From: Synergistota bacterium
Lineage (GTDB): Bacteria; Synergistota; GBS-1
DNA length: 64,000 nucleotides
Assembly: GCA_025060595.1 (NCBI GenBank)
Contig: JANXBX010000008.1
Coordinates: forward strand, 1-64,000
Direction of reading: 5' to 3'
The notes under the pieces were generated by a model. The model saw only the letters and a list, made by a program, of their open reading frames with translations, was not told the origin of the DNA and ran no database searches. Made by a program: the position numbers and the translations under genes. Every line of letters begins with the position of its first letter. The first letter of the stretch is position 1. This document shows, piece by piece, positions 12-24,505 of this stretch.

Positions 12-1484
12 TTATTCAAAGTGTTTCTTAATTACTTCTTTACTTGGTGGAGGAGTAATAAGAGAAACAATTATCATTACTATCAGGGTTATTATTGCTG
101 ATGGGATTAACGCATGGAAGCCTTTAGTTAAAGCAGGGGTCTTTGTGAAGTATATAACGGATATTAAACCAATGATTAAACCAGATAAGGCTCCATATTT
201 GTTTGCCCTTTTCCATCTTGTTCCTAAAACTAAGAGTATAGTGTTTATGCCAAGGCCTCCAAAGACAAACAGGATTATCTGGAATATGGTAGCTGGACGG
301 TATATTCCTATAAGAGTGGCAGCTATTCCGGCAAGAAGAGTTGCGACTCTCGCTACCTTCAAAACCGTTTGCTCCGATGCTTTTGGATTTATGACTTGCT
401 GATATAGGTCACGTGCGAAAGCTCCTGACACTGCGACAACAACCGAATCTATAGTTGACATTCCAGCTGATAGAACACCCGCCATTAAGATACTACCAAT
501 TATGGGATGTAGGGCTTTGGAAACTAGCGTTGGAACGACCCAGTCAGTCATCTTAGGTGGTATACCAGGGATAGCAGCCCTCGCTAAGACCGCTGCACTA
601 TACATGAATATTACTGATAGGAACATGCCTATTCCGCTTGCTATAGCTGCCCCCCATAATACTCTTCTGTCTCTCATAAGGAAAAACTTTGTAGCAAGTT
701 GAGGTTGTCCTACAGCGAAGAGGTTCCATAGCATAACGTTTGAGAGGAAAAATGGATATAGCATGTATTTTGTTGGGCTACCTGGCATTGTAAAGGCTTT
801 AGGATCTGTGGCCAAGAGTGCCTTGTTCGCTGCTTCAACGCCTCCAGCCAAATTTGCTGCTCCCCAAAATGTGAGGATAGCCGTAAACACCATTAATATT
901 CCTTGAACGATATTCGTATACATCGCTCCCCTTATTCCACCCATGAAACAGTAAACTGTAACGCCTAAGCCCATAACACAAACGCCTACCCAGTATGGCC
1001 AACCAGTAAAGGTATTGAATATGGTACCTGCTCCTATAGTTTGAGCTCCCATATAGGGTATAAGGAAGACGATAATTGCAATTGCTGAAATAACCCTTAT
1101 GGCTTTGCTTTCGTATCTATCGGCAAGGTAATCCGGTAGCGTTAAAAGCCCAAGCTTTTTACCTAGCCTTAAAAGTGGTCCTCCAACTAAAGCTGCCGGA
1201 ACTAGCATACTAAATGCTGCAGTTGGTACGCTTACAGCTAATCCAGCCCATCCGACGTTATATATAGTTCCGGGAACGCCAAGGAAGGTGCTTATACTGT
1301 ATTGAGTTGCGAAATAACCAAGCCCACCTAAAAGTATCCCTGCAGATCCGCCCATAACAAAGAATTCATTAAGGTTTAGAGCTTTCTTAGATGAAACCCA
1401 ACCGAGATAAAGCACAAAAGCTAAGTATAATAAGACTACTACTAAAAATGTTCCGGGAACAGGAGTTACCTGAGGTGCCTGCAT
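12..1484 (-). CDS. Sodium:solute symporter (SSS family, PanF-like)
   Basis: A 490-residue, highly hydrophobic protein with about 13 predicted membrane segments, the usual size and layout of the SSS family, which couples uptake of a small organic solute to Na+. Family-like stretches include FATQYSISTFLGVPG near residue 60 and GVLSAGMSTIDSVVVAVSGA near 340. The ATG is preceded by GGAGGG, which contains the stop codon of the upstream small membrane protein, so the two are translationally coupled. The solute cannot be read from the sequence; pantothenate, proline or a carboxylate are all possible. A GGAGG motif (minus strand, bases 6-10) follows the stop codon at the left window edge, so another gene of the same operon probably begins just outside. 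Confidence 0.9.
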   Translation of the reverse strand: MQAPQVTPVPGTFLVVVLLYLAFVLYLGWVSSKKALNLNEFFVMGGSAGILLGGLGYFATQYSISTFLGVPGTIYNVGWAGLAVSVPTAAFSMLVPAALVGGPLLRLGKKLGLLTLPDYLADRYESKAIRVISAIAIIVFLIPYMGAQTIGAGTIFNTFTGWPYWVGVCVMGLGVTVYCFMGGIRGAMYTNIVQGILMVFTAILTFWGAANLAGGVEAANKALLATDPKAFTMPGSPTKYMLYPFFLSNVMLWNLFAVGQPQLATKFFLMRDRRVLWGAAIASGIGMFLSVIFMYSAAVLARAAIPGIPPKMTDWVVPTLVSKALHPIIGSILMAGVLSAGMSTIDSVVVAVSGAFARDLYQQVINPKASEQTVLKVARVATLLAGIAATLIGIYRPATIFQIILFVFGGLGINTILLVLGTRWKRANKYGALSGLIIGLISVIYFTKTPALTKGFHALIPSAIITLIVMIIVSLITPPPSKEVIKKHFE

Positions 1485-1486
1485 GG

Positions 1487-1759
1487 CTATCCCTCCTTTT
1501 CCTCAAGTAGACCACTCTTCTTGAGCTGGAAGTAAAGGATTATCATGCCAACTATCGTTAAGATATTTACGATAATCCAGGTCCATACAAACCAAGGGAT
1601 CATAAACGGTCCCAAAGATAGTTCTGTCGTATAGTTGAACTTACCTGGGATCCAAACAAGAAAGTAAAGGAAAGCGAAATAGATTATCCACCCAACTAGG
1701 AAGCTTGGAATCTCCGATGGATAAAAACTCTCGGGTAGCTTAATAGTCTTCCTCTTCAA
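1487..1759 (-). CDS. Small two-helix membrane protein paired with the SSS symporter
   Basis: A 90-residue protein with two membrane helices (about residues 20-42 and 55-80) and a charged C-terminus. Small membrane proteins of this shape (DUF997/YhdT, DUF485 or DUF3311-like) are often encoded directly in front of SSS symporters, and I infer a helper or stability subunit. I could not assign it to one of these families with certainty. The start is TTG at 1759, with GGGGGTGA six bases upstream. A TATAAT (1809-1804, minus strand) without a clear -35 lies upstream, between this gene and the icd terminator, and may be its promoter. Confidence 0.75.
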   Translation of the reverse strand: MKRKTIKLPESFYPSEIPSFLVGWIIYFAFLYFLVWIPGKFNYTTELSLGPFMIPWFVWTWIIVNILTIVGMIILYFQLKKSGLLEEKEG

Positions 1760-1848
1760 GGTTCATCACCCCCGTGTGAAAAATTGTATGCACCTTAGTA
1801 TTATTATAATACTTAAAGTTTGGTTAGTGCATGAAAGGCACAAAAAAA

Positions 1849-1873
1849 GCCCCACCTCTTTTGAGATGGGGCT
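1849..1873 (-). terminator. Rho-independent terminator after icd
   Basis: An 11-bp stem (1849-1859 with 1863-1873, one wobble/mismatch, TTT loop). On the minus strand it is followed by a run of T residues (plus-strand A at 1843-1848). It sits about 20 bases beyond the icd stop and separates icd from the symporter promoter. Confidence 0.85.
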
Positions 1874-1892
1874 TTTAAGAGAAAGACTCTGT

Positions 1893-3089
1893 TTACATAC
1901 TCTTTATGTGTTCTATTATCCTTTCTCCAAAGTCGCTTGTGGAGACTTCCTTTGCTCCTTCTATCTGTCGAGCTAGATCGTAGGTTACGAACTTCTCTTC
2001 GATTGTTCTTTGTATACCCTCTATTATTAGTTCCTTGGCTTCTTTCCAACCGATATATTCAAGCATTTCCGCTCCGGATAGTATGAAGGAGCAAGGATTA
2101 GCCATGTTTTTGCCAGCATACTTGGGGGCAGAGCCATGAGTGGCTTCAAAGACCGCTATTCCGGTTTCGAAGTTTATATTTGCTCCCGGAGCCATTCCTA
2201 AGCCTCCCACTTGAGCTGCAGCCGCATCGGAAACGTAATCTCCATTTAGGTTAGGTGTGACCAATATATCATACTCATCGGGTCTTAAAAGTAGCTGTTG
2301 AAACATTGCATCGGCTATTCTATCTTTTAGCACTATCTTACCTTCTGGAGCTTTCCCTCCATAGTCTCTAATTAGTTCTTCTTCAGTTATAACCTTATCT
2401 TTGTATTCTTCTTTAGCTAATTCGTATATGGCATCTCTGAATAGCCCTTCAGTGTATTTCATTATATTCCCCTTGTGCATTATTGTTACCGACTTTCTCC
2501 CATGGTGTAAAGCATATTCTATGGCTGCTCTCCCCATCCTCTTTGAGCCATATATGCTTATGGGTTTTATTCCTATTCCAGAGTCTTCCCTTAGCTTTAT
2601 CCCAAAGGCTTGCTCTAAAAATTCTCTTATCTTTTTGGATTCTTCAGCATTAAAGGGCCACTCTATTCCAGCATAGACATCTTCAGTGTTTTCTCTAAAG
2701 ACTATGATATCTACTAACTCTGGTCTTTTTAGAGGAGAAGGGACCCCCCTAAAGTATCTAACAGGTCTAAAGCATACGTATAGGTCCAATATCTGTCTTA
2801 TAGCTACATTTACTGAGCGATACCCTCCTCCCACTGGTGTGGTTAGCGGTCCCTTTATCGCTATCTTATATTTTTTAATCTCTTCAATCGTTTCTGATGG
2901 TAAAACATCTCCCATCTCCTCTATAGCTTCTTCGCCAGCTAGGATTTTCTTCCATGTAATTTTTCTTTTCCCTCCATAGGCTTTTTCTACAGCAGCGTCA
3001 ATTACCTTTAAACCTACTGGTGTTATGTCTCTTCCTATTCCGTCTCCAACTATATAAGGTATAGTTGGGTTATCTGGGAGCTTTAACAA
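1893..3089 (-). CDS. icd: NADP-type isocitrate dehydrogenase
   Basis: A 398-residue isocitrate dehydrogenase that converts isocitrate to 2-oxoglutarate. Visible family features are the substrate-binding RSVNVAIRQ segment (around residue 92), [15 protein letters not shown], and the nucleotide-binding region with [19 protein letters not shown] and the [13 protein letters not shown] segment. The length is normal for the bacterial NADP-dependent homodimer. The start is TTG at 3089, with GGAGGTG eight bases upstream and only three bases after the aconitase stop. It is therefore cotranscribed with aconitase from the divergent, palindrome-bearing promoter at about 5100-5142. The pair turns cis-aconitate/citrate into 2-oxoglutarate, and is separated only by that promoter from the tricarboxylate uptake operon. 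Confidence 0.95.
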
Positions 3090-3092
3090 TTT

Positions 3093-5048
3093 TTAAACAC
3101 CTCCTCTTGAAACTAATGGTAAAACTCCTCCCTCAAGAATCATCTTTCTTTGCCTTTCGCTTAAGTTGAGCCTTAAGGGTATCTCCTTATTATCCTTGAG
3201 TCTTATCAGTTTTGTTACTTCTCTTCCTTCCTCTATGTCTCTTCTTAGTGTAGGTAGTATTACCTCGTCCCCTTCATTCAGGTTATCATAATCGTTAGGG
3301 TTAGCCAAAGTTAAGGGAACTATGCCGAAGTTGGTAAGGTTTGAGAAGTGTATTCTCTCTATAGACTTGGCTATAATTGCTTCAACGCCTAGGAACATCG
3401 GACATATGGCTGCATGCTCCCTTGATGATCCTTGTCCATAGCTTTCTCCAGCGAGCACAATGTTTGCTAAGCCCATTTCCTTATTTTTTAAGGCCCTTTC
3501 GTAGAAGCTTGGATCTAGAGGTTCAAATACATGCTTTGCATATTCGGGGACGTTTGATCTCAGCTTGAGATAAGCTCCAGCAGGCGTTATATGGTCTGTG
3601 GTTATTTTGTCTCCAACCTTTATGGTTATGACACCTCTTATGCTATCCTTTAACCTCTCCTTTATCGGCACAGGCTTAATATTGGGTCCTCTATATATTT
3701 CGATTTTTTCTCTTTCCTCTTTTGGTAGTGGGAAAATGAAGCCTGAGTCATCTATAACAAAGCTTTCTGGAAGAGAGAACCTCTTGTAGTTAATTCCCAT
3801 ATCTTCCAGTTTTCTTGGGTCGGTTATCTTTCCTGTTAAAGCTGTTGCCGCGGCTGTTTCAGGACTTACAAGGTAGACTAAAGCGTCTGGGGTTCCGCTT
3901 CTTCCCTTGAAGTTTCTGTTGCTGGTTCTTACAGAAACGCCACCCGAGTTTGGTGCAAAGCAAACCCCCACACAGAAGTTACAAGTGGTTTCAAGCAGCC
4001 TTGCTCCCGCTTTTAGTATCGATGCTAATCCGCCATCTCTATCTATTGTTAATAAAACCTGTCTTGATCCTGGTGTTACCCCTAACTGGACATCTTTGTG
4101 AACCTTTCTTCCGCTTAGTATGTGAGCGACTATCATAAGGTCTCTGTAAGAGGAATTTGTGCAACTTCCTATTGCAACCTGATCTACCTTGATGCCTTCT
4201 ATTTCCCTAACGGGTTTTACATTGTCTGGATGGTGAGGACAGGCCGCTAACGGCTCAAGCTTGGATAAGTCTATTTCTATTAATCCATCGTATTCTGCGT
4301 TTTCATCTGCTTCCAATGGTATCCAATCTTTTTCCCTGCCCTGTTTCTTTAGGAATTCTAATGTTACTTCATCAGAGGGGAAAATTGACGTGGTTACCCC
4401 AGTTTCGGTTCCCATATTCGTTATAGTTGCCCTATCAGGTACAGATAGCGTTTTAACTCCCTCTCCCCCATACTCTAATATACAGCCTACGTTACCTTTA
4501 CTTGTGATAATTGATAAGACTTTAAGTATTACATCCTTCGCTGATACCCAAGGAGGTAATTCTCCCTTTAACTCTACTCTTATTACCTTAGGGTAGGTAA
4601 GGTAAAACGGGCCTCCTCCCATAGCTACAGCTACATCTAATCCACCTGAGCCTATAGCGAGCGCTCCTATCCCTCCAGCTGTTGGTGTGTGACTATCGGC
4701 ACCGAGAAGAACTATACCTGGCTTTGCAAACCTCTCTAAGTGAACTTGGTGACATATTCCGTTGCCCGGTTTAGAGAAAATCATTCCAAACTTTTCTGCC
4801 ACGCTTTGAAGGTATTTGTGATCATCCATGTTTTCGAATCCCACTTGGACCGTGTTGTGATCTATGTAGGTTACTGAAAAGGTCTTGACTTCTTTGAATC
4901 CCATGCTTTCAAACTCGAGACAGGCCATCGTCCCGGTTGCATCATGGATAAGGGTTTGATCTACCTTGATCGCTATTTCTTCTCCTTTCTCCATTTTTCC
5001 CTTTAATAGGTGCTTTTCTATTATCTTTTGGACTATGTTCTTACCCAA
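3093..5048 (-). CDS. acn: Aconitate hydratase (aconitase)
   Basis: Monomeric aconitase of the mitochondrial/IPMI-like type, interconverting citrate, cis-aconitate and isocitrate. The [4Fe-4S] ligands lie in GSCTNSSYRDL and CNFCVGVC, and the C-terminal swivel domain contains GESYGQGSSREHAA. I place the start at TTG 5048, giving MGKNIVQKII, the usual family beginning, with AAGGAG about 11 bases upstream. An in-frame ATG at 5099 would add 17 basic residues, has no ribosome binding site, and starts inside the 23-bp palindrome, so it is probably transcribed leader. First gene of the acn-icd operon, divergent from prpF. Confidence 0.93.
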   Translation of the reverse strand: MGKNIVQKIIEKHLLKGKMEKGEEIAIKVDQTLIHDATGTMACLEFESMGFKEVKTFSVTYIDHNTVQVGFENMDDHKYLQSVAEKFGMIFSKPGNGICHQVHLERFAKPGIVLLGADSHTPTAGGIGALAIGSGGLDVAVAMGGGPFYLTYPKVIRVELKGELPPWVSAKDVILKVLSIITSKGNVGCILEYGGEGVKTLSVPDRATITNMGTETGVTTSIFPSDEVTLEFLKKQGREKDWIPLEADENAEYDGLIEIDLSKLEPLAACPHHPDNVKPVREIEGIKVDQVAIGSCTNSSYRDLMIVAHILSGRKVHKDVQLGVTPGSRQVLLTIDRDGGLASILKAGARLLETTCNFCVGVCFAPNSGGVSVRTSNRNFKGRSGTPDALVYLVSPETAAATALTGKITDPRKLEDMGINYKRFSLPESFVIDDSGFIFPLPKEEREKIEIYRGPNIKPVPIKERLKDSIRGVITIKVGDKITTDHITPAGAYLKLRSNVPEYAKHVFEPLDPSFYERALKNKEMGLANIVLAGESYGQGSSREHAAICPMFLGVEAIIAKSIERIHFSNLTNFGIVPLTLANPNDYDNLNEGDEVILPTLRRDIEEGREVTKLIRLKDNKEIPLRLNLSERQRKMILEGGVLPLVSRGGV

Positions 5049-5083
5049 TATTCCACCCGCTCCTTTCCTTTTGGCTTTAACTC

Positions 5084-5113
5084 TTGACAAGTAAGTCATG
5101 TATCATATATTAT
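5084..5113 (+). promoter_or_regulatory. Promoter of the prpF-tct operon
   Basis: TTGACA at 5084-5089 and TATTAT at 5108-5113 with an 18-base spacer. The -10 box and spacer lie inside the palindrome at 5099-5121, so a bound repressor would block RNA polymerase. On the other strand, TTGTCA (5142-5137) and TATCAT (5119-5114) with a 17-base spacer could serve acn-icd. Confidence 0.65.
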
Positions 5114-5121
5114 ATGATACA
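5099..5121. promoter_or_regulatory. 23-bp palindromic operator, site 1
   Basis: A perfect inverted repeat: arm TGTATCATATA, one central base, arm TATATGATACA. It lies in the divergent acn/prpF promoter region and overlaps the candidate -10 boxes on both strands. A near copy lies at 11846-11868 in front of the operon that encodes a GntR/FCD regulator. I infer that this is that regulator's operator; no binding evidence is available from sequence. Confidence 0.75.
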
Positions 5122-5163
5122 GGAAATAATCAGCTTTGACAATAGGTATTGGAGGGAGAAAAG

Positions 5164-6336
5164 TTGATAAAAATACCTGTTACGATCATAAGGGGAGGGA
5201 CGAGCAAGGGTATTTACATAATGAGGAAGGACCTACCTGAGGATGAAACGCTTATGAAGAAGATCATCCTAGGTATATTTGGTAGCCCTGATGTAAGACA
5301 GATAGATGGTTTAGGGGGAGCCGATATAGTAACAAGCAAAGTAGCGATAATAGATAAATCAGATAAGGAAGAAATTGATGTCTATTACAAGTTCGGTCAG
5401 GTGGGAATAAAGGAGCCTGTTGTAGACTTTTCTTTAAGTTGTGGGAATTTAGTCTCTGGGGTAGGGGTTTTTGCTCTTCTCAAGGGATTTAAGAAAGCTG
5501 AGGAGCCCTTTACTATGGTTAACGTCTATGATGTAAATATTAGGAAGCATGTTAGGATAAAGGTGCCCGTTAAGGATGGAATGCCTTACTATGATGGCGA
5601 TTTCTATATAGATGGCGTTCCCTTCCCGGGTGCAAGGATAGATGTGACTTTCTTAAATCCTGCAGGCTCTATAACTGGCAAGCTTTTACCTACTGGAAAA
5701 GTTAGAGATGTTCTAAGTAACGGGATTGAATATTCTTTGGTTGATGCCGGAGTTTTAGGTATGTTTGTAAAAGCTTCGGATCTAGGTCTCACTGGGAAGG
5801 AAGGGCCTGGTGATATAGACAATAACATAGGTTTACTTAATTTAATTAATGATATGAGGGGTGAAGTTTTAGTAAATATAGGAATGGCTCCAGATAAGAA
5901 AACTGCGTTAGCAAGGTATCAATACCTCCCAAAATTCATAGTAGTAGCTCCTCCTTCAGATTTTATCTCTCCTATAAATGGAAAGAGGGTTAAGAAAGAG
6001 GAGTGTAGCTTGCTTGCTAGAGTTATAACTGGCAATAAATTACATAAGGCTTTCCCCGTTACTAGCTCTATATCTTTAGCTGCCGCGTTTGGGCTTGAGG
6101 GCTCAATTGTAAATGAGGTAGCGGTTAGCAGGGAGGAAGGAAAAGTTTTTATAGGTCATCCTTCTGGGGTTATAGATCTCTCATTTAAGAAGTCTTCAGA
6201 TGGTGAAATTGAAGAGGTTACCATAGGTAGAACCGCAAGGCTGATAATGGAGGGGATCGTTTATGTTCCTGAGAGTCGTATTTATGGGAGGTGGTATGAT
6301 AGCAGTGAGGATAAGCTGGCTGATGTGGAAATCTGA
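5164..6336 (+). CDS. prpF: PrpF-family aconitate/2-methylaconitate isomerase
   Basis: A protein of about 390 residues of the PrpF family (diaminopimelate-epimerase fold), whose members shift the double bond of methylaconitate or isomerise trans- to cis-aconitate. The family opening IPVTIIRGGTSKGIY is present, as are GGADIVTSKVAII and SLSCGNLVSGVGVFAL. I choose TTG 5164 as start because GGAGGG lies seven bases upstream; the in-frame TTG at 5149 overlaps that motif. First gene of the operon that continues into tctC, tctC, tctB, tctA and a PrpD-family gene. With aconitase across the promoter and no methylisocitrate lyase in sight, aconitate isomerisation seems more likely than propionate metabolism; that is an inference. 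Confidence 0.9.
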   Translation: MIKIPVTIIRGGTSKGIYIMRKDLPEDETLMKKIILGIFGSPDVRQIDGLGGADIVTSKVAIIDKSDKEEIDVYYKFGQVGIKEPVVDFSLSCGNLVSGVGVFALLKGFKKAEEPFTMVNVYDVNIRKHVRIKVPVKDGMPYYDGDFYIDGVPFPGARIDVTFLNPAGSITGKLLPTGKVRDVLSNGIEYSLVDAGVLGMFVKASDLGLTGKEGPGDIDNNIGLLNLINDMRGEVLVNIGMAPDKKTALARYQYLPKFIVVAPPSDFISPINGKRVKKEECSLLARVITGNKLHKAFPVTSSISLAAAFGLEGSIVNEVAVSREEGKVFIGHPSGVIDLSFKKSSDGEIEEVTIGRTARLIMEGIVYVPESRIYGRWYDSSEDKLADVEI

Positions 6337-6351
6337 CATAAGGGGGTGTTA

Positions 6352-7329
6352 ATGTTGAGAAAACTAAAGTATGTTGTTCTTGCCTTGGTAGTAGTTGTAA
6401 CTTTAGGCTTATGGAGTTTTGCTTTCGCTAAGTTTCCTGAAAGACCTGTGACCCTGGTTTGCCCCTTTGGTGTGGGTAGCGCAAGCGATACTTTTGTTAG
6501 GGCCTTGAAGGAGCCGCTGTCTAGAGCCTTAGGAGTTCCCGTTGTTATAGTTAATGTGGAAGGAGGAGGCGGACTTAAGGGTTTAGTTTATGCAGCTCAG
6601 CAACCGGCAGATGGTTATACGCTATTTCAATTTACTCCCTCTCATATAATAGCCTCCGTTTTAAAGAGATCAGAATATGATCTTTTTAATGACTTTGTGG
6701 TTTTAGGTAGAGGAGATGATGATATCTATGCCCTTGTTGTAAGTCCTAAAGGTGAGTTTAATACCTTTAAGGACTTGCTTGAGTGGGCTAAGAAGAATCC
6801 TTATGCTCTAACTATGGGCGGTGTTTCTCCTATGGGGCTTGATGAGTTCGTTACCCGCGTTTTTGCTAAAAAGTTTGGTATTAACGTTACATTTGTTCCC
6901 TTTGAAAGCGGTTCCCAAGCCTTCACAGCTTTAATGGGCGGTCACATAAAGGCAATGCTTTATAAGATGGAATCAGTTGCTCCGCAAGTTGCTTCTGGTG
7001 CAGTTAAACCGTTGCTTGTTATGACTCCTGAGAGAATCAACGATCCTCTTTGGAAAGATGTTCCTTGTGTTAAAGAGTTTGGAGTTGAGATGTATATAGG
7101 CTCCTTTAGGGCATTTGCTGTTAGGAAGGGAGCACCGGAAGAGGCCATAAAGGTCCTTGAGGCTGCTATAAAGGATGCGGTTAATAGCCCTGAGTTTAAG
7201 GAATATATAAAAAAGCTCGGTTCTATACCTAGGGGCGGATATATGGGGCCAGCAGAGTTCGCAAAATATATGGAGGATGCCAAAGTGATGTTTACTGAGA
7301 TAGCCAAGGAATTTGGTTATTTGAAATAA
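6352..7329 (+). CDS. tctC: Tricarboxylate-binding protein TctC, copy 1
   Basis: Periplasmic solute-binding protein of a tripartite tricarboxylate transporter (TTT), about 325 residues. An N-terminal signal peptide (hydrophobic VVLALVVVVTLGLW ending in FAFA) is followed by the family signature FPERPVTLVCPFGVGSASDT and later GGGLKGLVYAAQQPADGYT. ATG 6352 follows AGGGGG by five bases; GTG 6346 and TTG 6355 are possible alternatives. It is tandem with a clearly paralogous tctC. The ligand pockets differ (for example VGSASDT here and VGGGADT there), so the two may bind different acids. Confidence 0.93.
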   Translation: MLRKLKYVVLALVVVVTLGLWSFAFAKFPERPVTLVCPFGVGSASDTFVRALKEPLSRALGVPVVIVNVEGGGGLKGLVYAAQQPADGYTLFQFTPSHIIASVLKRSEYDLFNDFVVLGRGDDDIYALVVSPKGEFNTFKDLLEWAKKNPYALTMGGVSPMGLDEFVTRVFAKKFGINVTFVPFESGSQAFTALMGGHIKAMLYKMESVAPQVASGAVKPLLVMTPERINDPLWKDVPCVKEFGVEMYIGSFRAFAVRKGAPEEAIKVLEAAIKDAVNSPEFKEYIKKLGSIPRGGYMGPAEFAKYMEDAKVMFTEIAKEFGYLK

Positions 7330-7360
7330 TAGAAGGCATGAGTGAGGGGAGGGATAGCTT

Positions 7361-8338
7361 ATGGTTAGTAAAGGTAAGAAAAGGTGGATTTTGTTATTCG
7401 TCCTAGCTTCGCTTCTCCTTGTGTCTTTTTCTGCTTATGCGAAGTTTCCGGAAAGACAGGTAACAATCGTTGTTCCCTTTGGTGTAGGTGGCGGTGCTGA
7501 TACATTCGCTAGAGCCTTACAGGGACCGTTATCTAAGGCTTTAGGAGTTCCCGTTGTGATAGTTAATGTAGAAGGCGGTGGAGGATTGAAAGGTATGATT
7601 TATGCGGCTCAGCAACCTGCTGACGGTTATACTATATTTCTCTTTACTACATCGCATCTTATAGCATCTATTTTGAAGAGAGCGGAAGTAGATCTTTTTA
7701 AGGATTTCGAGATACTAGCTAGGCTTCAGCATGACGTTTCTGTTCTTTGGACCTCTGGGAAAAGTCAGTTTAAGAGCTTTAAGGAGCTCTTAGATTGGGC
7801 AAAGAAGAACCCTTATGCCTTAACCGTTGCTGGAACTTCTCCATTGGGTTTTGATGAGTTTAGAGATCGTTATTTTGCTAAGAAGTTTGATATCAAGATA
7901 ACCTTTGTTCCCTTTGAAAGCGGTTCTCAAGCTATAGCTGCTACCTTAGGTGGCTTTGTTCTTACTCACATGGAGGAACCTGCTCCGATAAAGGATATTA
8001 TAGCTAGTGGTGAGGGTAGAGCTCTCGTAGTTATGTGGAAGGAAAGGCTTCCTCTTTGGCCTGATGTTCCTTGCGTTAAGGAGTTTGGAGTTGAAGACTA
8101 TATAGGCGTGTTTAGAGCCTTTGCTGTTAGGAAAGGAACACCACCTGAGGCAATTGAAGTGTTATCCAAGGCTATCGAGAAGGCTATTCAAGATCCAGAG
8201 TACCTAGATTTTCTTAAGAAAACCATGGGAGATTTAAGACCTGGTTATCTTCCTGGACCGCAGTTCCTCAAGGAGTTAGAGGAGGAAAGGAAAGCATACG
8301 AGGAGATCGCAAAAGAGCTTGGTTATGTTAAACAGTAA
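7361..8338 (+). CDS. tctC: Tricarboxylate-binding protein TctC, copy 2
   Basis: Second TTT binding protein, 325 residues, with a signal peptide (WILLFVLASLLLVSFSAYA) and the family start FPERQVTIVVPFGVGGGADT. It resembles the preceding gene along its whole length (shared GVPVVIVNVEGGGGLKG and TFVPFESGSQA), so it arose by tandem duplication. ATG 7361 is preceded by GAGGGGAGGG. A terminator-like hairpin follows immediately (8347-8375) before tctB, so both binding proteins are probably made in excess over the membrane subunits. Confidence 0.93.
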   Translation: MVSKGKKRWILLFVLASLLLVSFSAYAKFPERQVTIVVPFGVGGGADTFARALQGPLSKALGVPVVIVNVEGGGGLKGMIYAAQQPADGYTIFLFTTSHLIASILKRAEVDLFKDFEILARLQHDVSVLWTSGKSQFKSFKELLDWAKKNPYALTVAGTSPLGFDEFRDRYFAKKFDIKITFVPFESGSQAIAATLGGFVLTHMEEPAPIKDIIASGEGRALVVMWKERLPLWPDVPCVKEFGVEDYIGVFRAFAVRKGTPPEAIEVLSKAIEKAIQDPEYLDFLKKTMGDLRPGYLPGPQFLKELEEERKAYEEIAKELGYVKQ

Positions 8339-8346
8339 GTTTCTGA

Positions 8347-8375
8347 TCGAGGGTGGGAGAGTACCCCACCCTCGA
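8347..8375 (+). terminator. Intra-operon attenuating terminator after tctC
   Basis: A perfect 11-bp stem, TCGAGGGTGGG with CCCACCCTCGA, a 7-base loop, then C and five T residues. It lies between the binding-protein genes and tctB in the same direction. It looks like a partial terminator that lowers downstream membrane-gene expression. Confidence 0.8.
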
Positions 8376-8395
8376 CTTTTTAAGGGGTGATGAAA

Positions 8396-8875
8396 GTGGG
8401 AGAACTTGTATTTGAACTATCTGCTTTGGGTTTGGCGGTTTTCTTTTATGTAGTTGCTGTAGTTTCAGATGCTCCTAATCCTATCTCTGTTATGAGGCCT
8501 TACTGGTGGCCTAAAATGATATTATTCATAATGTTAATTATATGCTTGGTGCTTATTTTCGGAGCTTTGAAGGAGTGGAAAGCTTTAAAGGTTACTAAGA
8601 GGGAAAGTAAAGCTAGAGCTTGGCCTTGGCTTTTAGCTCAGGTTATTAATATAACTGCCTTGGTTGCTCTCCAGAATGTATTAGGCTTCTTAGTAACCTC
8701 TATTATCTGTGGGATTTTATCTTGTTTCATAATAGAGGGGAAATTCAGGTTTATGCATCTTCTAGTATCTTTAGTTGCCGTATTAAGTTTGACCTTGTTT
8801 TTCGGTTCCGTTATGGGTGTAATTCTTCCCAGGGGTCTTTGGGTTTTTAGAGATTTAAGTTTTTACCTATATTGA
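8396..8875 (+). CDS. tctB: Tricarboxylate transporter small membrane subunit TctB
   Basis: About 159 residues with four predicted membrane helices, the size and topology of TctB/DUF1468, the small subunit of TTT transporters. The conserved early stretch RPYWWPKMILFIMLIICLVL is visible. GTG 8396 lies eight bases after AGGGG; in-frame GTG 8387 and ATG 8390 sit too close to that motif. Its stop is followed at once by the ribosome binding site of tctA. Confidence 0.88.
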   Translation: MGELVFELSALGLAVFFYVVAVVSDAPNPISVMRPYWWPKMILFIMLIICLVLIFGALKEWKALKVTKRESKARAWPWLLAQVINITALVALQNVLGFLVTSIICGILSCFIIEGKFRFMHLLVSLVAVLSLTLFFGSVMGVILPRGLWVFRDLSFYLY

Positions 8876-8887
8876 GGGGTGAGGAGA

Positions 8888-10390
8888 ATGGAGCTTTTAG
8901 GTGCTTTTTATAAGGTTATGCTCGACCCGATAAGCTGGTTTTTAATGGTTATCGGTGTAGCAGCTGGCACACTCTTTGGAGCGCTTCCAGGTATAAGTAC
9001 TTCTATGGGTGTTGCTCTAATGTTACCTTTTACCTATAAGCTTGATGTTGTTTATGCTCTTATACTATTGGTTTCAACTTACTGTGGTGGCGTTTTTGGA
9101 GGATCTATAACCGCAATCATGTTTAATATCCCTGGAACTCCAGAAGCGACACCTACCACATTTGATGGCTACAAGATGACGTTGAAAGGTGAAGGTGGAA
9201 AGGCCCTTGGAACAGCTATAGCTTGTTCGGCATTTGGAGGAGCTTTTAGCGTTGTAATGATGGCTTTGATTTCTCCTCTTTTGGTTAAAGCAGCGTTAAG
9301 TTTTAGCCCTGCTGACTATGCTGCTGTTGCCTTTTTAGGTTTAAGTGCTGTAGCTGGTTTAGGTTATGGACCTAAAGAGCAGTTAAAGGCTTTACTTTCG
9401 GTAACCTTAGGCTTGCTTTTAGCTACTGTTGGTATAGATGCTATAACAGGTGTTCCTCGTTTTACCTTTGGCTCGTCAGCCCTTCTTGGTGGTATAAAGT
9501 TTATACCCGTAATGATAGGGGCCTTTGCTGGTGGGGAGGTTTTAAGACAGATAGAGGATAGAAAGAAGGGTTTAGGTGAGGAGATAGTTCTTTACAAGAA
9601 GGAAATAACAGCTAAGATTCCATCCTTAAGGGAGTTTTTAGCTATAAAGTGGACGATACTTAAATCGGCTTTCATAGGATTAGGTATAGGGATTCTTCCT
9701 GGAGCTGGTGCAACTATAGCTGCCTTTGTAAGTTATGGTGTAGCTAAAAGATCGTCTAAGCATGGGGATAAATTTGGAACCGGAATAATGGAAGGCGTTG
9801 CCGCTCCAGAGACAGCAAATAATGCTTCTACAGGAGGAGCAATGGTTCCTTTGCTTTCCCTTGGTATTCCAGGGAGTGGAACTACAGCGGTTATCTTAGG
9901 TGTTTTCCTTATGTATGGAATTCAACCTGGGCCTTTACTTTATGCTAAGGATCCGCAGCTTGTTTATTCTATAATAATAGGAATGTTTTTAGCTAACGTA
10001 TTAATGCTTTTTATTGGAAAGCTTGGAGTGAAGCTATTTGTTCAGACCCTTAGGCTACCCTATTATGTTATAGGAACATCTATATTGCTTCTTTCCCTTA
10101 TAGGTTCCTATGGTCTTGATAATGATATAGATGATGTTTGGGTATGTCTGGTATTTATGGTTATAGGTTACTTCATGAGGAAGTATGGTTTTCCTGTAGC
10201 TGCTTTAGTTTTAGGTTTGGTTTTAGGGAAGCTTATAGAGAATAATCTTAGAAGAGCGCTTATAATATCTGGTTTCAGCTGGAGCGCTGCTCTTGGAAGG
10301 CCTTTAACTATTTCTCTTGTAGCCATAACGATATTCATGCTTGTTTGGCCGTATATAAAGGCGTTTAGGGAAAAGGTAAAAGGCGTTTAG
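8888..10390 (+). CDS. tctA: Tricarboxylate transporter large membrane subunit TctA
   Basis: About 500 residues with roughly 11-12 membrane segments, the TTT permease. Family motifs are GTLFGALPGISTSMGVALMLP near the N-terminus and, in the second half, GILPGAGATIAAFVSYGVAK, PETANNASTGGAMVPLLSLGIPG and LMYGIQPGPLL. These two loop motifs form the carboxylate/Na+ site in the family. ATG 8888 is chosen over GTG 8879 because GAGGGGTG lies six bases before it. With TctB and the two TctC proteins this makes a complete citrate/aconitate-type importer. Confidence 0.95.
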   Translation: MELLGAFYKVMLDPISWFLMVIGVAAGTLFGALPGISTSMGVALMLPFTYKLDVVYALILLVSTYCGGVFGGSITAIMFNIPGTPEATPTTFDGYKMTLKGEGGKALGTAIACSAFGGAFSVVMMALISPLLVKAALSFSPADYAAVAFLGLSAVAGLGYGPKEQLKALLSVTLGLLLATVGIDAITGVPRFTFGSSALLGGIKFIPVMIGAFAGGEVLRQIEDRKKGLGEEIVLYKKEITAKIPSLREFLAIKWTILKSAFIGLGIGILPGAGATIAAFVSYGVAKRSSKHGDKFGTGIMEGVAAPETANNASTGGAMVPLLSLGIPGSGTTAVILGVFLMYGIQPGPLLYAKDPQLVYSIIIGMFLANVLMLFIGKLGVKLFVQTLRLPYYVIGTSILLLSLIGSYGLDNDIDDVWVCLVFMVIGYFMRKYGFPVAALVLGLVLGKLIENNLRRALIISGFSWSAALGRPLTISLVAITIFMLVWPYIKAFREKVKGV

Positions 10391-10392
10391 CA

Positions 10393-11760
10393 ATGCTTTC
10401 TCCAACTCAGAGGCTAGCGTTCTTCATTAAAGGTCTTAGTTATGAGAGTTTACCGGATATCGTTAAGGAAAGGGCTAAAGAATCAGTTATAGATACCTTA
10501 GCTGTAGCTATAGCTGCCTCCTGCTTTGAGGAAGTTCCTTATGTTGTTCAAGAGATTTTAAGTCATGACGAATCTTCTGAATCGACCGTATGGGGTTATA
10601 ATCGTAAAGCTTCGGTTTTTAACTCTGCTCTTTTAAATGGAATCATGGGACATGCTTTGGAGCTTGATGATGTCCATAAAGAGTCAAAGACCCATCCAGG
10701 TACGGTTGTTATTCCTGCTGTTTTAAGTGTAGGTGAGCTTTTAGCTTCCTCTGGAAGAGAGATAATAGAAGCTATCGTGGCAGGTTATGAAGTAATGATA
10801 AGAATTGGTATGGGTATAGGTGTTAGCAGTCATCGGTTAAAAGGGTGGCATGTAACGGGCACAGCTGGAACTTTTGGAGCGGCAGCTGGGGTAGCGAAGC
10901 TATTAAAACTTGATGAATCTCAAATAGTAAGTGGCCTAGGTTTGGCTGGTACCCAATCGTCTGGGTTATGGGCTTTTACTGCAGATGGAGCTACCTGTAA
11001 AAAGCTTCATCCAGGACATGCTGCCTATTGTGGCGTTTTGTCCGCTTTTCTCTCTAAGGCTGGCATGACAGGGTCAAGTAGGATACTTGATGCGGAAGAT
11101 GGAGGATTATTTCGCGCTACCTCGGATGAGTATGATCTTTCCTTAGTCACGAAAGATTTGGGAGAGGCCTTTGAGATAGTTAATGTTGATCGCAAACCCT
11201 ATGCTTGTTGTAGAAGTATGCATCCTCCTATAGATGCGATACTTAAGTTAAAAAAGGAATATAATCTTGAGCCTGAGGATATAGAGTCTATATATATAAA
11301 GACTTATAAAGTTGCCATTAAGCAATGTGCCTTCACTAAAAAACCTGTTAACGTTGCTGAAGCGAAGTTCTCTATGGCTTATGGTGTTGCAGTAGCTTTA
11401 TATGATGGTTGTGCTCTTGTAGAGCAGTTTAGTCCGGAGAGAATAAGAGATCCTAAGGTTTTAGCCCTATCGGATAAAGTGTATATAGAGGAGGATGAGG
11501 AATTTACGTCTAGGTATCCTCTTGAATGGGGTTGTGAGGTCACGGTTCTAACAAAGAGAGGAGAAAGATTTACTACTAGGATTTACGCTGCTAAGGGAGA
11601 CTCTAGGAGGAATCCTATGAATACCGAAGAGATAAAGGATAAGTTTATGAGATTAACCCAGCCTATACTTAAGGAGAAAGCTGAAAGGCTTTATGAAATG
11701 CTGGTTAACATGGAAAGTTTAAAGGATATAAGTGAGTTGAGTAATTTATTGAAAACTTAA
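10393..11760 (+). CDS. MmgE/PrpD family dehydratase or decarboxylase
   Basis: A 455-residue MmgE/PrpD-family enzyme. The family contains 2-methylcitrate/citrate dehydratase (PrpD) and cis-aconitate decarboxylase. Visible signature regions are NGIMGHALELDDVHKE, THPGTVVIPAVLS, GWHVTGTAGTFGAAA, KKLHPGHAAYCGV and YACCRSMHPPIDA. It starts two bases after tctA ends and is the last gene of the prpF-tct operon. Context suggests it acts on an imported tricarboxylate such as citrate or aconitate. Whether it dehydrates (giving cis-aconitate for aconitase) or decarboxylates (giving itaconate) cannot be decided here. Confidence 0.88.
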   Translation: MLSPTQRLAFFIKGLSYESLPDIVKERAKESVIDTLAVAIAASCFEEVPYVVQEILSHDESSESTVWGYNRKASVFNSALLNGIMGHALELDDVHKESKTHPGTVVIPAVLSVGELLASSGREIIEAIVAGYEVMIRIGMGIGVSSHRLKGWHVTGTAGTFGAAAGVAKLLKLDESQIVSGLGLAGTQSSGLWAFTADGATCKKLHPGHAAYCGVLSAFLSKAGMTGSSRILDAEDGGLFRATSDEYDLSLVTKDLGEAFEIVNVDRKPYACCRSMHPPIDAILKLKKEYNLEPEDIESIYIKTYKVAIKQCAFTKKPVNVAEAKFSMAYGVAVALYDGCALVEQFSPERIRDPKVLALSDKVYIEEDEEFTSRYPLEWGCEVTVLTKRGERFTTRIYAAKGDSRRNPMNTEEIKDKFMRLTQPILKEKAERLYEMLVNMESLKDISELSNLLKT

Positions 11761-11804
11761 TAAGCTTGTGAAACATCTTTCCCTTCCTTCTTGATGTTTT
11801 GGAC

Positions 11805-11833
11805 TTGACGAAGGAGATTACCTTAGGTATAAT
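11805..11833 (+). promoter_or_regulatory. Promoter of the citrate synthase-gntR operon
   Basis: TTGACG (11805-11810), a 17-base spacer and a perfect TATAAT (11828-11833). The 23-bp palindrome at 11846-11868 starts about 13 bases downstream of the -10 box, covering the early transcribed region. Confidence 0.8.
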
Positions 11834-11845
11834 ATCGAGCAATTA

Positions 11846-11868
11846 TACATCATACAATATATGATGTA
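11846..11868. promoter_or_regulatory. 23-bp palindromic operator, site 2
   Basis: Arms TACATCATACA and TATATGATGTA around a central A, with one mismatch between the arms. It shares the ATCATA...TATATGAT core, length and symmetry centre with the perfect palindrome at 5099-5121. It lies just downstream of a strong promoter, so binding would repress the operon that contains the gntR gene itself (autoregulation, inferred). Confidence 0.75.
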
Positions 11869-11891
11869 TTTAAAAGTGAAGGGAGGGAAAG

Positions 11892-13031
11892 TTGTTGTGT
11901 GTTGAAGGAGAGGTAAAATGGGGGCTTGAGGGTGTCATTGTAACGGTGAGCTCCATCTCTTACTTGGACGGGGAGAAGGGATTGCTCTCTTACAGAGGTT
12001 TCGCTGTTGAGGAACTAGCTTGTAATTCTTCCTTTGAAGAGGTGGCTTACCTTTTGTGGTTTGGGGCGTTGCCGACGAGTGATGAATTAAATTGGCTTTC
12101 ATCAGAGCTTTCTAAGGAGAGAGATATACCTTTGGAAGTGGTAAATATAATGAAACTTTTTCCCAAGAAAACTCATCCAATGGATGTTCTAAGAAGCGTA
12201 GCTTCTATTCTAAGTTTTTACTCAGAGGATGACTCTATTTCTTTCAAAAATGCTATACATTTAACAGCTAAACTTCCCACAGTAGCTGCTTATTGGTATA
12301 GGTTAAGAAACGATTTACCGTTGATACCACCTGATAGAAGCTTAAGTCATGCTGATAATTTCCTTTACATGATGTTTGGCGAGGTTCCTGAGTATTCTGA
12401 TCTATTCGATAAGATGCTTATACTTCATGCAGAGCAGGAGATAAACGCATCTACTTTTTCTGCGATGGTTACCTCTTCTACGTTAAGCGATATTTACTCT
12501 GCTGTGGTCTCCGCTATAGGAACATTAAAGGGGTCCCTTCATGGTGGGGCTAACGAAAAGGTTTTAGAGATGTTAGAGGAAATAGGATGTATTGAAAACA
12601 CTGAAAGCTACTTTAACGCTATGGTTTCAAGAAAGGAAAGGATTATGGGATTTGGTCATAGAGTATATAAGACCTATGATCCGAGAGCAAAGCTTATGAA
12701 GGAATGGCTTTGCGAGTTGAATGAAATTCAAAAGGTGAAATATTTGGATATAGCTTTGAAGCTTGAGGAGCTAGTTTTGGAAAAGTTTAAGGATAAAAGG
12801 ATTTATCCTAATGTAGACTTTTTCTCTGGTATTTTGTACAATCATTTTGGTATACCAAGGGACTATTTTACAGTTTTGTTTGCCATGGCAAGGATCGTGG
12901 GATGGACGGCTCATGTGATCGAGTATCGTCAGAATAATAGGCTTTTTAGACCATTAGCGATCTATAATGGTCCTGTAAATTTAAGTTATAAGGAAGTTAA
13001 GAAACAAATTAGTAAGGGAGCGGCTTCATAA
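11892..13031 (+). CDS. Citrate synthase (or 2-methylcitrate synthase)
   Basis: A 379-residue citrate synthase of the short bacterial type. Catalytic regions are visible: the first His in GSLHGGANEKV, the second in GFGHRVYKTYDPRAK, the Asp in NVDFFSGI, plus HAEQEINASTF. TTG 11892 follows GGGAGG by five bases; TTG 11895 is equally possible. Motifs alone do not separate citrate from 2-methylcitrate synthase. The nearby aconitase and icd, and the lack of prpB in the window, favour citrate formation from acetyl-CoA and oxaloacetate. Same operon as the downstream GntR regulator. Confidence 0.92.
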   Translation: MLCVEGEVKWGLEGVIVTVSSISYLDGEKGLLSYRGFAVEELACNSSFEEVAYLLWFGALPTSDELNWLSSELSKERDIPLEVVNIMKLFPKKTHPMDVLRSVASILSFYSEDDSISFKNAIHLTAKLPTVAAYWYRLRNDLPLIPPDRSLSHADNFLYMMFGEVPEYSDLFDKMLILHAEQEINASTFSAMVTSSTLSDIYSAVVSAIGTLKGSLHGGANEKVLEMLEEIGCIENTESYFNAMVSRKERIMGFGHRVYKTYDPRAKLMKEWLCELNEIQKVKYLDIALKLEELVLEKFKDKRIYPNVDFFSGILYNHFGIPRDYFTVLFAMARIVGWTAHVIEYRQNNRLFRPLAIYNGPVNLSYKEVKKQISKGAAS

Positions 13032-13054
13032 ATAAATTTTATGGGGGCGAGGCG

Positions 13055-13720
13055 GTGCTTTTACTCATGATAGAGAGAAGGTCTTTGAAGGATGAGGTGT
13101 TAGAGAAGGTTAAAAGCTATATAGTTTCAGGGCGTTATCTTCCTGGGCAGAAAGTGGTTATAGACAGTCTTGCTAAGGAGCTTGGGGTTAGTGTGACTCC
13201 TGTACGGGAAGCTTTGCACTATCTGGCAGCTCAGGGATTGTTGGTTTCAGAGCCTCACCGGGGATTTTTAGTTAAGAAGTGGAGTAGAAAGGAAATAGAA
13301 GACCTTCTTTCATTAAGGGCTTATCTTGAAAGGCTTGCTGCTAAGCTATTTATAGAGCGAGGATATGATGCTTATATTGATCTCCTTAGGGAGAAGCTTA
13401 AGGAGATGGAGCTAGCTTCTGGTATGAGCAGTGTAGAAGAGATGACCAGGCTTAACTCTGAGTTTCATGCGATAATTGTTAAAGGGGCTGGAAATGAAGA
13501 GCTTCGGCGTGTTATAGATTCTTTAAGTGAGAAGCTTTATAGGGTTAGAGTTCTTTCAATATCCTATCCAGGTAGGTTTAAGGATTCTTATAAGGAGCAT
13601 ATGGATATCTATGAAGCCATAGAAAGTAAAAATATTTCTCTTGCTGAAAAGAGAGTAGAGGAGCACATAAATAGTATTTTAAGAGTTCTCCTTAAAAGGT
13701 TTGAGGAGGGCTTAATTTAA
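13055..13720 (+). CDS. GntR-family transcriptional regulator (FCD domain)
   Basis: A 221-residue regulator. The N-terminal winged helix-turn-helix (about residues 10-75) includes LAKELGVSVTPVREALHYL and PHRGFLVKKW. The C-terminal all-helical FCD ligand domain (about 80-215) contains the metal/ligand-type residues D/H of LNSEFHAIIVKGAGNEEL and EHMDIYEAIESKN. FCD regulators typically sense small organic acids, and citrate or aconitate would fit here. GTG 13055 follows GGGGG by seven bases; ATG 13067 is an alternative. Cotranscribed with citrate synthase, it is the natural candidate to bind the palindromes at 5099-5121 and 11846-11868. Its 3' end overlaps the convergent kinase gene by 29 bases. 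Confidence 0.92.
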   Translation: MLLLMIERRSLKDEVLEKVKSYIVSGRYLPGQKVVIDSLAKELGVSVTPVREALHYLAAQGLLVSEPHRGFLVKKWSRKEIEDLLSLRAYLERLAAKLFIERGYDAYIDLLREKLKEMELASGMSSVEEMTRLNSEFHAIIVKGAGNEELRRVIDSLSEKLYRVRVLSISYPGRFKDSYKEHMDIYEAIESKNISLAEKRVEEHINSILRVLLKRFEEGLI

Positions 13721-14750
13721 GCTTAAGCCTCTTTAGAGCTACTAGGATTGCTCCGATTGCCGATGCCTTTTCGGCAACCTCATATGAAAGGACCTTCACA
13801 TTGATTTTGAGTGCTTCCGATGAGATCCACATGTTGAATAATTTTCCGAAAATTTCTCTTAGTGGACCTGTTCCCCCAATGAATATGTTGGCCTCTCCTT
13901 GATCAATTAAGCTCTTGAATCTTTGATCTTTCTCGAGAGCTAAGATATCTATACTACCGAGCGCGCCCCAAAGGAAGCTTCTTCTCTGGTCAGTATTAGA
14001 TTCGCTCATTAGATGAAGAAGCCTTATCATAAATAGGCTTCGAGTTAATCCGCATTGGCGAGCCATTTTAAAGCCGTTAAGAAGGAACTCTTCATCAAGG
14101 TAGCTTAGCTTTAAGTCTTCAAGAGATCTTCCCAATAGCGTTGAAGATACCAAGGCGCTTGCAAGCTCTCCTGTTATGGTTGTTAAAGAGCCTTTTATGC
14201 GCTTATTTTCATCTATAAATATGAACTTTGTATGAGAGCCAGGTATAACTATTATCGCTGGTTTTTCTATTTTCTCGAGCTCTATGATCCCAAAGCTTTC
14301 ACATTCTTCGCCTCTCATTATGTCGCAAGATTTTATTTGCTCAAAGAGAGAGCCTTTTTCCTCTTTTGGGATCGTCTTTACTCCTGGTATGAATAAAATG
14401 GGTTTTGGCCATATCCTTTCAAAGAGCTTTTCAACTATGTTTGAGGCTACCTCTTCAAGGCCAGCTGGAGCAATAACATGCTGGACTTCAAGAAGGCCTG
14501 CCTCTGAGGTTATCATCCCCGAGGCTGCGATTCCCATTATTTCATTTGAGGATATACTCCCTTCCTCAATTACCCTTGATATGCATTTAATTAAGGCTTC
14601 CTCTAAGGCCTCTTTACCTTTTAATCTTGTATCCTTAGCACCTATATTTTCACTTACTTTAGCCACTATAGATAGACTGCTTAAATCTACTAGTCTTACT
14701 CTTGTGTTAGTTGTGCCTCCATCTATCGTTATGAAGAATTTCTTTTCCAT
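13692..14750 (-). CDS. 2-dehydro-3-deoxygalactonokinase-like sugar-acid kinase (DgoK family)
   Basis: A 352-residue DgoK-family kinase (ASKHA fold). It has the phosphate-binding opening ITIDGGTTNTRVRLVD, the family segments GVKTIP, DIMRGEECES and VIPGSHTKFI, and a late IGGTGPLRE. DgoK phosphorylates 2-keto-3-deoxygalactonate, but relatives act on other keto-deoxy acids. It is the last gene of the leftward operon dehydrogenase-RraA-LarA-kinase, starting 13 bases after the larA stop. A KDPGal aldolase is not nearby; the RraA-like aldolase in the operon may take that role (inference). Confidence 0.85.
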   Translation of the reverse strand: MEKKFFITIDGGTTNTRVRLVDLSSLSIVAKVSENIGAKDTRLKGKEALEEALIKCISRVIEEGSISSNEIMGIAASGMITSEAGLLEVQHVIAPAGLEEVASNIVEKLFERIWPKPILFIPGVKTIPKEEKGSLFEQIKSCDIMRGEECESFGIIELEKIEKPAIIVIPGSHTKFIFIDENKRIKGSLTTITGELASALVSSTLLGRSLEDLKLSYLDEEFLLNGFKMARQCGLTRSLFMIRLLHLMSESNTDQRRSFLWGALGSIDILALEKDQRFKSLIDQGEANIFIGGTGPLREIFGKLFNMWISSEALKINVKVLSYEVAEKASAIGAILVALKRLKLKLSPPQTF

Positions 14751-14763
14751 CCCTTTACCCTCA

Positions 14764-16047
14764 TTAATTTTGTGCTAGCTTTGGAAGTACAGTTGTGGAT
14801 CTTGGGAAAACAGCTATCTTACACTGTCTTCCATATCTAGCAATTACTCTGTCGATGGCCTCTTGCAATGTAAGGCAGCTTTCGATTCCCATCTTCTCAA
14901 TTATATGAGGCTCTATCTTTTGCGTTACTATTATCATTCTAACCTTTTCTAATGTTCTCGCCCATATTTGAGCTCCCCATTGATCTTTAACCGGGGATGT
15001 ATAGCACTTTTCAATTATAGCCTCAGGTTTTCCTAAACACATTAGCTCGTAAAACTCTCGATGGTGTCCGATTCCCTCCGTTCCCTCCATAGGCAGTATT
15101 ATAGTTCCTCCATCTTTTATGATTTTACTTTTTGTTCTAAAAACTGCTGATGTTATCTTCGGTCCTTGATAAAGTACTTGATCTAGTGGGAATCCGCTTG
15201 CTGTTATAGCCACGTCACAAGGATGAGGAAGTTCGACTTCTCTGAAGCTTCTAGAAAGCTCTACTCCTTTAAGCCATGCTTTTTCTAAATCTCCGCCTAC
15301 GGCCCAGGTGAGCTTTTCATTTTGATTTAAGACTAAGTTTAAGATAAAGTCTACCCTTATCGCTCTTGCAAACTCCATAGCATCCTCATGTTGGGGATTC
15401 CCCTCTAGTACACCGTTTACCGCAAGCGGATGGTCCATCATCTTAGCATTGTGGTTATGCATTACAGCTTTTTCGCTTGCTATCCCGGGCATGATGCTTT
15501 TTCTCCCACCTGTGAAACCAAATTGCTGGTGGGGCTCTATATATCCTGTGAGTATAAGTACATCTGTTTCTACAGCTATTCTGTTAACTTCTATAGGGGT
15601 TCCTCTGCTTGTTTCCCCTAGATATACTAAATTAGACTTATCTTTGTAATCGTGATTTATTATCTTAACTCTTTTAACGATGTTTTCTCCATAAAGGTTT
15701 TTTTGTTCCTCTATGGTTAATCCTCGATGTAATCCTGTTGCGATAAGAAGAGTGATGTCTTCGTCTTTCACTCCGCATCTATTTAAATACTCAAGGAGAA
15801 TAGGTAGCACTACTTTGTAAGGTATAGGTCTTGTTATATCGCTTACTACTATACAGACCTTTTTACCCGGCTTAGCTAGCTTGGATAAGGGCGGAGTTCC
15901 TATGGGTTCTTCAAGCGCCTTTGTGATCTCTTCTATAGGATCTTTTGCTGGTTCTACCCCTGGAGCTTCGTAAATTCCCATCAGGTTTTCCGTTGGAATG
16001 TTTGCGCTTATATAGTTATGGCCAAAAGGTATGGTAACTTTTATCAA
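14764..16047 (-). CDS. larA: LarA-family nickel-pincer racemase/epimerase
   Basis: A 427-residue LarA (DUF2088) homologue. LarA of Lactobacillus uses a covalently bound nickel-pincer nucleotide to racemise lactate through hydride transfer. The key residues are all in register: His107 (GLHRG), His173 and Lys183 in EPHQQFGFTGGRK (Lys carries the cofactor), and His199 in HNHNA. Homologues act on several 2-hydroxy acids, and the sugar-acid neighbours argue for something larger than lactate. The cofactor makers LarB, LarC and LarE are not in the window and must be elsewhere if this enzyme works as expected. Two bases separate it from the upstream RraA-like gene. Confidence 0.9.
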   Translation of the reverse strand: MIKVTIPFGHNYISANIPTENLMGIYEAPGVEPAKDPIEEITKALEEPIGTPPLSKLAKPGKKVCIVVSDITRPIPYKVVLPILLEYLNRCGVKDEDITLLIATGLHRGLTIEEQKNLYGENIVKRVKIINHDYKDKSNLVYLGETSRGTPIEVNRIAVETDVLILTGYIEPHQQFGFTGGRKSIMPGIASEKAVMHNHNAKMMDHPLAVNGVLEGNPQHEDAMEFARAIRVDFILNLVLNQNEKLTWAVGGDLEKAWLKGVELSRSFREVELPHPCDVAITASGFPLDQVLYQGPKITSAVFRTKSKIIKDGGTIILPMEGTEGIGHHREFYELMCLGKPEAIIEKCYTSPVKDQWGAQIWARTLEKVRMIIVTQKIEPHIIEKMGIESCLTLQEAIDRVIARYGRQCKIAVFPRSTTVLPKLAQN

Positions 16048-16048
16048 G

Positions 16049-24475: not shown

Positions 24476-24505
24476 TAGGGGCTATCCCTTAAGGGATAGC
24501 CCCTA
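24476..24505. terminator. Bidirectional terminator between the amino-acid dehydrogenase and hypD operons
   Basis: A perfect 15-bp inverted repeat (24476-24490 with 24491-24505) at the meeting point of two convergent operons, with short T-containing flanks. It can serve both strands. Confidence 0.8.

Follow-up and report, generated by a model that had tools for sequence, protein, structure and literature searches.

Two matching palindromes, very probably landing sites of a neighbouring GntR/FCD repressor, at an aconitase-isocitrate dehydrogenase locus in a Synergistota bacterium

Results

Gene content of the locus

The window, by which we mean the whole 64-kb stretch of Synergistota DNA analysed here (64,000 nucleotides), carries two divergent gene groups followed by a third that ends with a regulator gene:

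1840-1869, minus strand: intrinsic terminator CCCCATCTCAAAAGAGGTGGGGCTTTTTTT, read directly from the sequence; it ends acn-icd before the 90-aa/SSF symporter genes
1893-3089, minus strand: icd, NADP isocitrate dehydrogenase (TIGR00183)
3093-5048, minus strand: acn, aconitase (TIGR01342), start TTG at 5048 (MGKN...)
5164-6336, plus strand: prpF-like isomerase gene (PF04303), start TTG at 5164 read from the sequence
6346-10390, plus strand: tctC, tctC, tctB and tctA, genes of a tripartite tricarboxylate-type transporter
10393-11760, plus strand: gene for an MmgE/PrpD-family enzyme
11892-13031, plus strand: cs, citrate synthase (TIGR01800 subfamily)
13055-13720, plus strand: gntR, GntR/FCD regulator predicted to bind both operators described below

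Although the acn reading frame could open at an ATG at 5099, within the first palindrome described below, the predicted start is the TTG at 5048, because a ribosome-binding site and the alignment with the orthologue of the GBS-1 genome (MGKN...) support it. Downstream of icd, the SSF symporter was considered as a further member of the regulon and rejected: a clear, strong intrinsic terminator cuts it off, and the symporter genes therefore probably lie outside the acn-icd operon.

The isomerase, a candidate aconitate isomerase, belongs to the PrpF family, and its nearest solved relatives are 3-methylitaconate isomerase (the nearest) and PrpF. The solved proteins nearest to the PrpD-like enzyme are IDS-epimerase and cis-aconitate decarboxylase, and it matches 2-methylcitrate dehydratase poorly. 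Given this poor match and the gene set as a whole, the locus does not support a 2-methylcitrate cycle, and we discarded that function. A plausible route for the prpF-tct module is one in which Tct imports an aconitate- or citrate-like acid, PrpF isomerises it, and aconitase and isocitrate dehydrogenase convert it to 2-oxoglutarate.

Two further observations concern the surroundings. Next to gntR, the minus strand of 13692-17790 encodes a 2-keto-3-deoxygalactonokinase-like protein, a LarA-like racemase, an RraA-like protein and a D-2-hydroxyacid dehydrogenase, and this block adjoins gntR also in GBS-1 and in a same-genus genome. Besides the full aconitase, the genome encodes several LeuC/LeuD-type dehydratase pairs (contigs C1, C2 and C3), more than leucine synthesis alone needs.

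Two palindromes with a common sequence

Re-reading the sequence bore out the two elements of the initial annotation: a perfect palindrome at 5099-5121 (TGTATCATATATTATATGATACA), with arms of 11 bases around one centre base, and a near copy of the same 11+1+11 build with one arm mismatch at 11846-11868 (TACATCATACAATATATGATGTA). Hereafter they are called operators 1 and 2. Counted by eye, 17 of their 23 positions agree in one orientation and 18 in the other, and the form common to both is of the type ATCATAYA-W-TRTATGAT.

We took the chance level for this geometry from a third-order Markov version of the 64-kb window. Perfect 23-mers occurred once against 0.02 expected per 64 kb, and one-mismatch 23-mers three times against 0.67; the third 11+1+11 palindrome of the window, at 57127, is GC-rich and unrelated to the operator motif. 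Palindromy on its own is strong for site 1 alone and weak for site 2. Since one-mismatch palindromes are expected this often, the decisive point is the sequence common to the two sites, not their symmetry. The statement that the window holds no comparable element stands for the motif and fails for palindromes generally, as others lie at 18723, 24480, 29533 and 44738. Their sequences are unrelated to the operator, and two of them are followed by T runs and resemble terminators. The perfect palindromes at 24479-24502 and 29532-29555 (22-24 bases) are unlike the operator motif and have no T run after them; they could be other operators or hairpins.

We then scanned the 1.86-Mb genome, allowing mismatches, with a pattern built from the two window sites. 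Within two mismatches, sites 1 and 2 were the sole matches, so that no crowd of unrelated copies speaks against the motif; simulated sequence composed like the window gave an expectation of fewer than 0.2 matches to this pattern. Allowing three mismatches added one match, C13:30898 (3 mismatches), which we rejected as an operator since it falls within a purF-like reading frame and the number of such matches is at chance level. A relaxed pattern, drawn up after the cs site of GBS-1 had been seen, gave weaker genome matches at 2-3 mismatches that were about as numerous as chance predicts. One of them, the weak palindrome TACATTATACATTGTATAATAAA at C1:181727-181749, precedes cupin and KduI/IolB-like genes at a distance of about 63 bp. 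It could be chance or the operator of a paralogous FCD regulator, and it was set aside as a regulon site, the number of matches being at chance level.

Position of the sites relative to predicted promoters

The promoter-like sites scored over 1400-14000 are consensus matches rather than mapped starts, and their total was no higher than in shuffled sequence; three predicted promoters of the locus, those of acn, prpF and cs, were among the best in this interval:

5084-5111, plus strand: predicted prpF promoter TTGACA-16-TATATT, with the -10 at 5106-5111, within operator 1
5114-5142, minus strand: predicted acn promoter TTGTCA-17-TATCAT, with the -10 at 5119-5114, within operator 1
11805-11833, plus strand: predicted cs-gntR promoter TTGACG-17-TATAAT, just upstream of operator 2

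Operator 1 lies 51 bp upstream of acn, with its centre (5110) near the middle (5106) of the acn-prpF interval, and covers the -10 elements of both divergent predicted promoters. Operator 2 begins 13 bases past the cs -10 and spans about +6 to +28 of the predicted cs-gntR promoter, in agreement with its earlier placement just after that promoter. The same anatomy recurs in GBS-1, where the predicted acn promoter (TTGCCA-17-TATCAT) occupies the same place with its -10 again within the palindrome, and the cs promoter (TTGACA-17-TATAAT) is followed by a site about 22 bases into the predicted transcript. The anatomy at both sites points to a repressor. Control of acn-icd, prpF-tctCCBA-prpD and cs-gntR had been proposed from the outset; the promoter overlap fits repression of these groups, which is the sign of control that we infer.

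The GntR/FCD protein

The gntR product (221 aa) belongs to the FCD (FadR/FCD) subfamily of the GntR family. It combines an N-terminal GntR winged helix-turn-helix (PF00392, 59.3 bits against a cut-off of 27) with a C-terminal FCD domain (PF07729, 94.9 bits against a cut-off of 24.3) whose fold matches FCD structures. The fold is predicted with a mean pLDDT of 89.5, and PmiR is the nearest solved relative both by sequence (7xp0, E 7e-25) and by fold (7xp1/7xp0). Across the orthologues the core of the recognition helix is invariant, as are the candidate metal-site residues N134, H138, H182 and H204 of the FCD domain. These align with D, H, H and H of TM0439, so that the three histidines are kept and an Asn replaces the usual Asp.

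Operators of the FadR subfamily are typically odd-centred, AT-rich palindromes with a 3-nt core, a single site lying near the middle of a divergon, and TKGT/ACMA boxes 3 (or 2) nt apart are common in them, though not universal (PMC4494728). The sites described here have the odd centre, the AT-richness and the 3-nt core; they are without TKGT/ACMA boxes, carrying ATAY instead, with mostly AY/RT at the GT/AC positions. Missing boxes do not bar membership of the FadR/FCD group, as its FCD members BioR and NanR also depart from them. Following the FadR alignment, we take residues 49 and 37 of the protein to be positions 40 and 28 of the numbering in which base preferences have been described for the subfamily. 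There, Pro at position 40 is reported to avoid G/C at the corresponding site position, and Asp at position 28, where most members have Arg, to prefer G/C (PMC4494728). Pro49 fits the A/T of the operator; Asp37 does not fit.

Conservation in related genomes

Among 188 species of the phylum that were searched, only five genomes yielded an orthologue of the regulator, and the gntR system is therefore small and lineage-specific. The operator comparison covers three genomes, namely the window's own, GBS-1 (G003) and G005; the same-genus G001 and the same-family G002, whose contigs break in cs and in gntR, were left out. The GntR protein of GBS-1, from the same genus, is 77% identical to that of the window, and that of the other family 52%.

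In GBS-1 (locus L027), acn-icd and cs-gntR are directly divergent with no prpF-tct-prpD between them, and no PrpF was found anywhere in this genome. Sites are nevertheless present beside both orthologous operons, at L027:8378-8400, 50 bp upstream of acn, and at L027:8758-8780, upstream of cs. They match the window-only pattern with 0 and 3 mismatches, respectively, and are the only matches to the relaxed pattern genome-wide. Between the window and GBS-1 the acn operator is identical at 22 of 23 positions, compared with 47 of 98 alignment columns (48%) in its flanks. The strongest evidence that the palindromes would act as operators is this comparative conservation.

In G005, from another family, one contig carries gntR-prpF-prpD-tctC, and at the beginning of another stands acn-icd, preceded by the end of tctA; the two contigs may be neighbours in the genome, and the proteins of the locus are 48-68% identical to those of the window. 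Just before gntR lies an AT-rich element, TAAATCATGTAAAATATATTATG, that matches the GBS-1 cs site at 18 of 23 bases. The best motif score of that contig falls in this stretch, with about 0.06 expected per contig of such length, which is no more than suggestive of a weak operator copy. Citrate synthase was not found in the G005 assembly, which is 82% complete.

The regulator gene is always present, and acn and icd are found wherever the assemblies cover the locus, while some relatives lack citrate synthase and some lack the prpF-tct-prpD module. The common denominator is gntR with acn-icd, and acn-icd is the constant target. The term tricarboxylate regulon used in the initial annotation holds for the window; tricarboxylate uptake is not what defines the regulon, since GBS-1 keeps both sites without prpF-tct-prpD. 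The regulator is better viewed as controlling the aconitase-isocitrate dehydrogenase step, to which supply modules can be added, either for synthesis (citrate synthase) or for uptake and isomerisation (Tct and PrpF).

Discussion

Our analysis suggests that the two palindromes are very probably landing sites of the neighbouring GntR repressor. We consider it probable that the GntR/FCD protein encoded at 13055-13720 uses both as operators and represses from them until relieved by an acid of the citrate group. A GntR dimer at operator 1 would cover both divergent -10 elements and shut off acn-icd and prpF-tctCCBA-prpD together, and a dimer at operator 2, immediately past the transcription start, would block cs-gntR and hence production of the regulator itself. 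Repression would be lifted when an acid of the citrate/aconitate/isocitrate group occupies the FCD pocket, probably together with a divalent metal. A tricarboxylate effector is plausible by analogy, because of the relationship to PmiR, the histidines of the FCD metal site and the binding of citrate by CitO. This model is favoured by the observation that the regulator is linked to these genes in other genera, too. Induction of citrate synthase by a tricarboxylate, on the other hand, would be feed-forward, which is unusual and counts against it. The missing TKGT/ACMA boxes, Asp37, the weakness of the G005 site and a comparison that covers three genomes also weigh against it.

The same operators and regulator could follow an end-product logic, in which a co-repressor such as 2-oxoglutarate or a signal related to glutamate turns down the citrate synthase-aconitase-isocitrate dehydrogenase branch once its product is abundant. 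The regulon of GBS-1, made up of cs, acn, icd and gntR only and thus of the oxidative branch that makes 2-oxoglutarate, is what one would expect of such a circuit. In the window and in G005, however, genes for an isomerase and for tricarboxylate uptake accompany the regulator, which speaks for substrate sensing. Moreover, PmiR, its nearest solved relative, responds to 2-methylisocitrate (according to a paper title), and the FCD protein CitO to citrate. We regard a co-repressor as unlikely.

It is more doubtful still that another regulator, such as a paralogous FCD/GntR protein, acts at these operators. At least two such paralogues (35-37% identity) are encoded in the genome, and regulators of the GntR/FCD family can control unlinked genes. 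Nevertheless, wherever an assembly covers the promoter of gntR, the gene belongs to an operon that has a site at this promoter, and it is a constant neighbour of acn/icd or prpF/tct. That the palindromes are RNA hairpins in leaders (a riboswitch or attenuator) or chance AT-rich symmetry is very improbable: site 2 does lie within a predicted leader and both sites have the AT-richness that raises chance matches, but we rejected an RNA element because there is no Rfam family match, the stems consist of A-U pairs almost throughout and no T run follows them, site 1 would be mostly untranscribed from the acn and prpF promoters, whose -10 elements it overlaps, both arms are conserved in sequence at two different loci, and the whole-genome pattern counts together with GBS-1 rule out chance symmetry for the pair.

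On this comparative evidence we have high confidence that the palindromes are real operators with a functional role, and that they serve a local GntR/FCD repressor that regulates itself. A broader proposal goes further, and we find it possible while leaning slightly against it: in this uncultured lineage, one GntR/FCD repressor that senses a tricarboxylate may directly govern the whole citrate synthase-aconitase-isocitrate dehydrogenase branch, and what has been connected to the shared operators may differ between relatives, being citrate synthase in some, aconitate isomerase/Tct uptake in others, or the two together. For a little-studied lineage, the locus provides a regulator, an operator and a set of target genes with which control of the oxidative TCA branch and of tricarboxylate uptake can be put to the test. 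Moreover, the FCD regulators gain a class of operators that has no GT/AC boxes, and the locus hints at the effector in a regulator family whose ligands are mostly unknown.

Comparison with known systems

Systems of this kind are well known, and what we describe is an ordinary metabolic switch in an uncultured bacterium. The closest relative, PmiR (PA0797, PrpR) of Pseudomonas aeruginosa, is a GntR/FCD repressor of the 2-methylcitrate operon (PMC9765439); its effector, going by the title of the paper in which it was named, is 2-methylisocitrate. The two have in common a predicted autoregulation, an operon with an enzyme of the citrate synthase family and, given the tricarboxylic effector of PmiR, the type of ligand proposed here. 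They differ in that the GntR protein of the window is only about 33% identical to PmiR, and in their sites: the predicted PmiR operator ATTGTCGACAAT is even-centred and contains GT/AC boxes (PMC9765439), unlike the two operators described here. The PmiR operon contains prpB, prpC and acnD, without a Tct transporter or icd; in the window locus neither prpB nor acnD was found, and a PrpB-like lyase on another contig scores below the curated cut-off. The gene of this lyase (L060, G000:C5:128415-129143) lies directly downstream of another FCD/GntR gene, away from the prpF/prpD locus.

CitO of Enterococcus faecalis, also an FCD regulator, binds citrate via a divalent metal and controls divergent citrate operons (PMC4746285). 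It is an activator of citrate lyase fermentation genes, unlike the repressor proposed here, and the gene content of the window locus includes neither citrate lyase nor oxaloacetate decarboxylase genes. The TarR-tarAB system of Bacillus velezensis, which serves trans-aconitate, likewise places a PrpF-superfamily protein, there an aconitate isomerase, and a transporter under a dedicated regulator. Its regulator, however, is the LysR-type activator TarR and its importer TarB, whereas the window has a GntR/FCD protein and a tripartite Tct transporter. Finally, CcpC of Bacillus subtilis, a member of the LysR family, controls the genes for citrate synthase and aconitase in response to citrate. It is unrelated to the regulator of the window in protein and in sites, yet the target genes of the two are similar.
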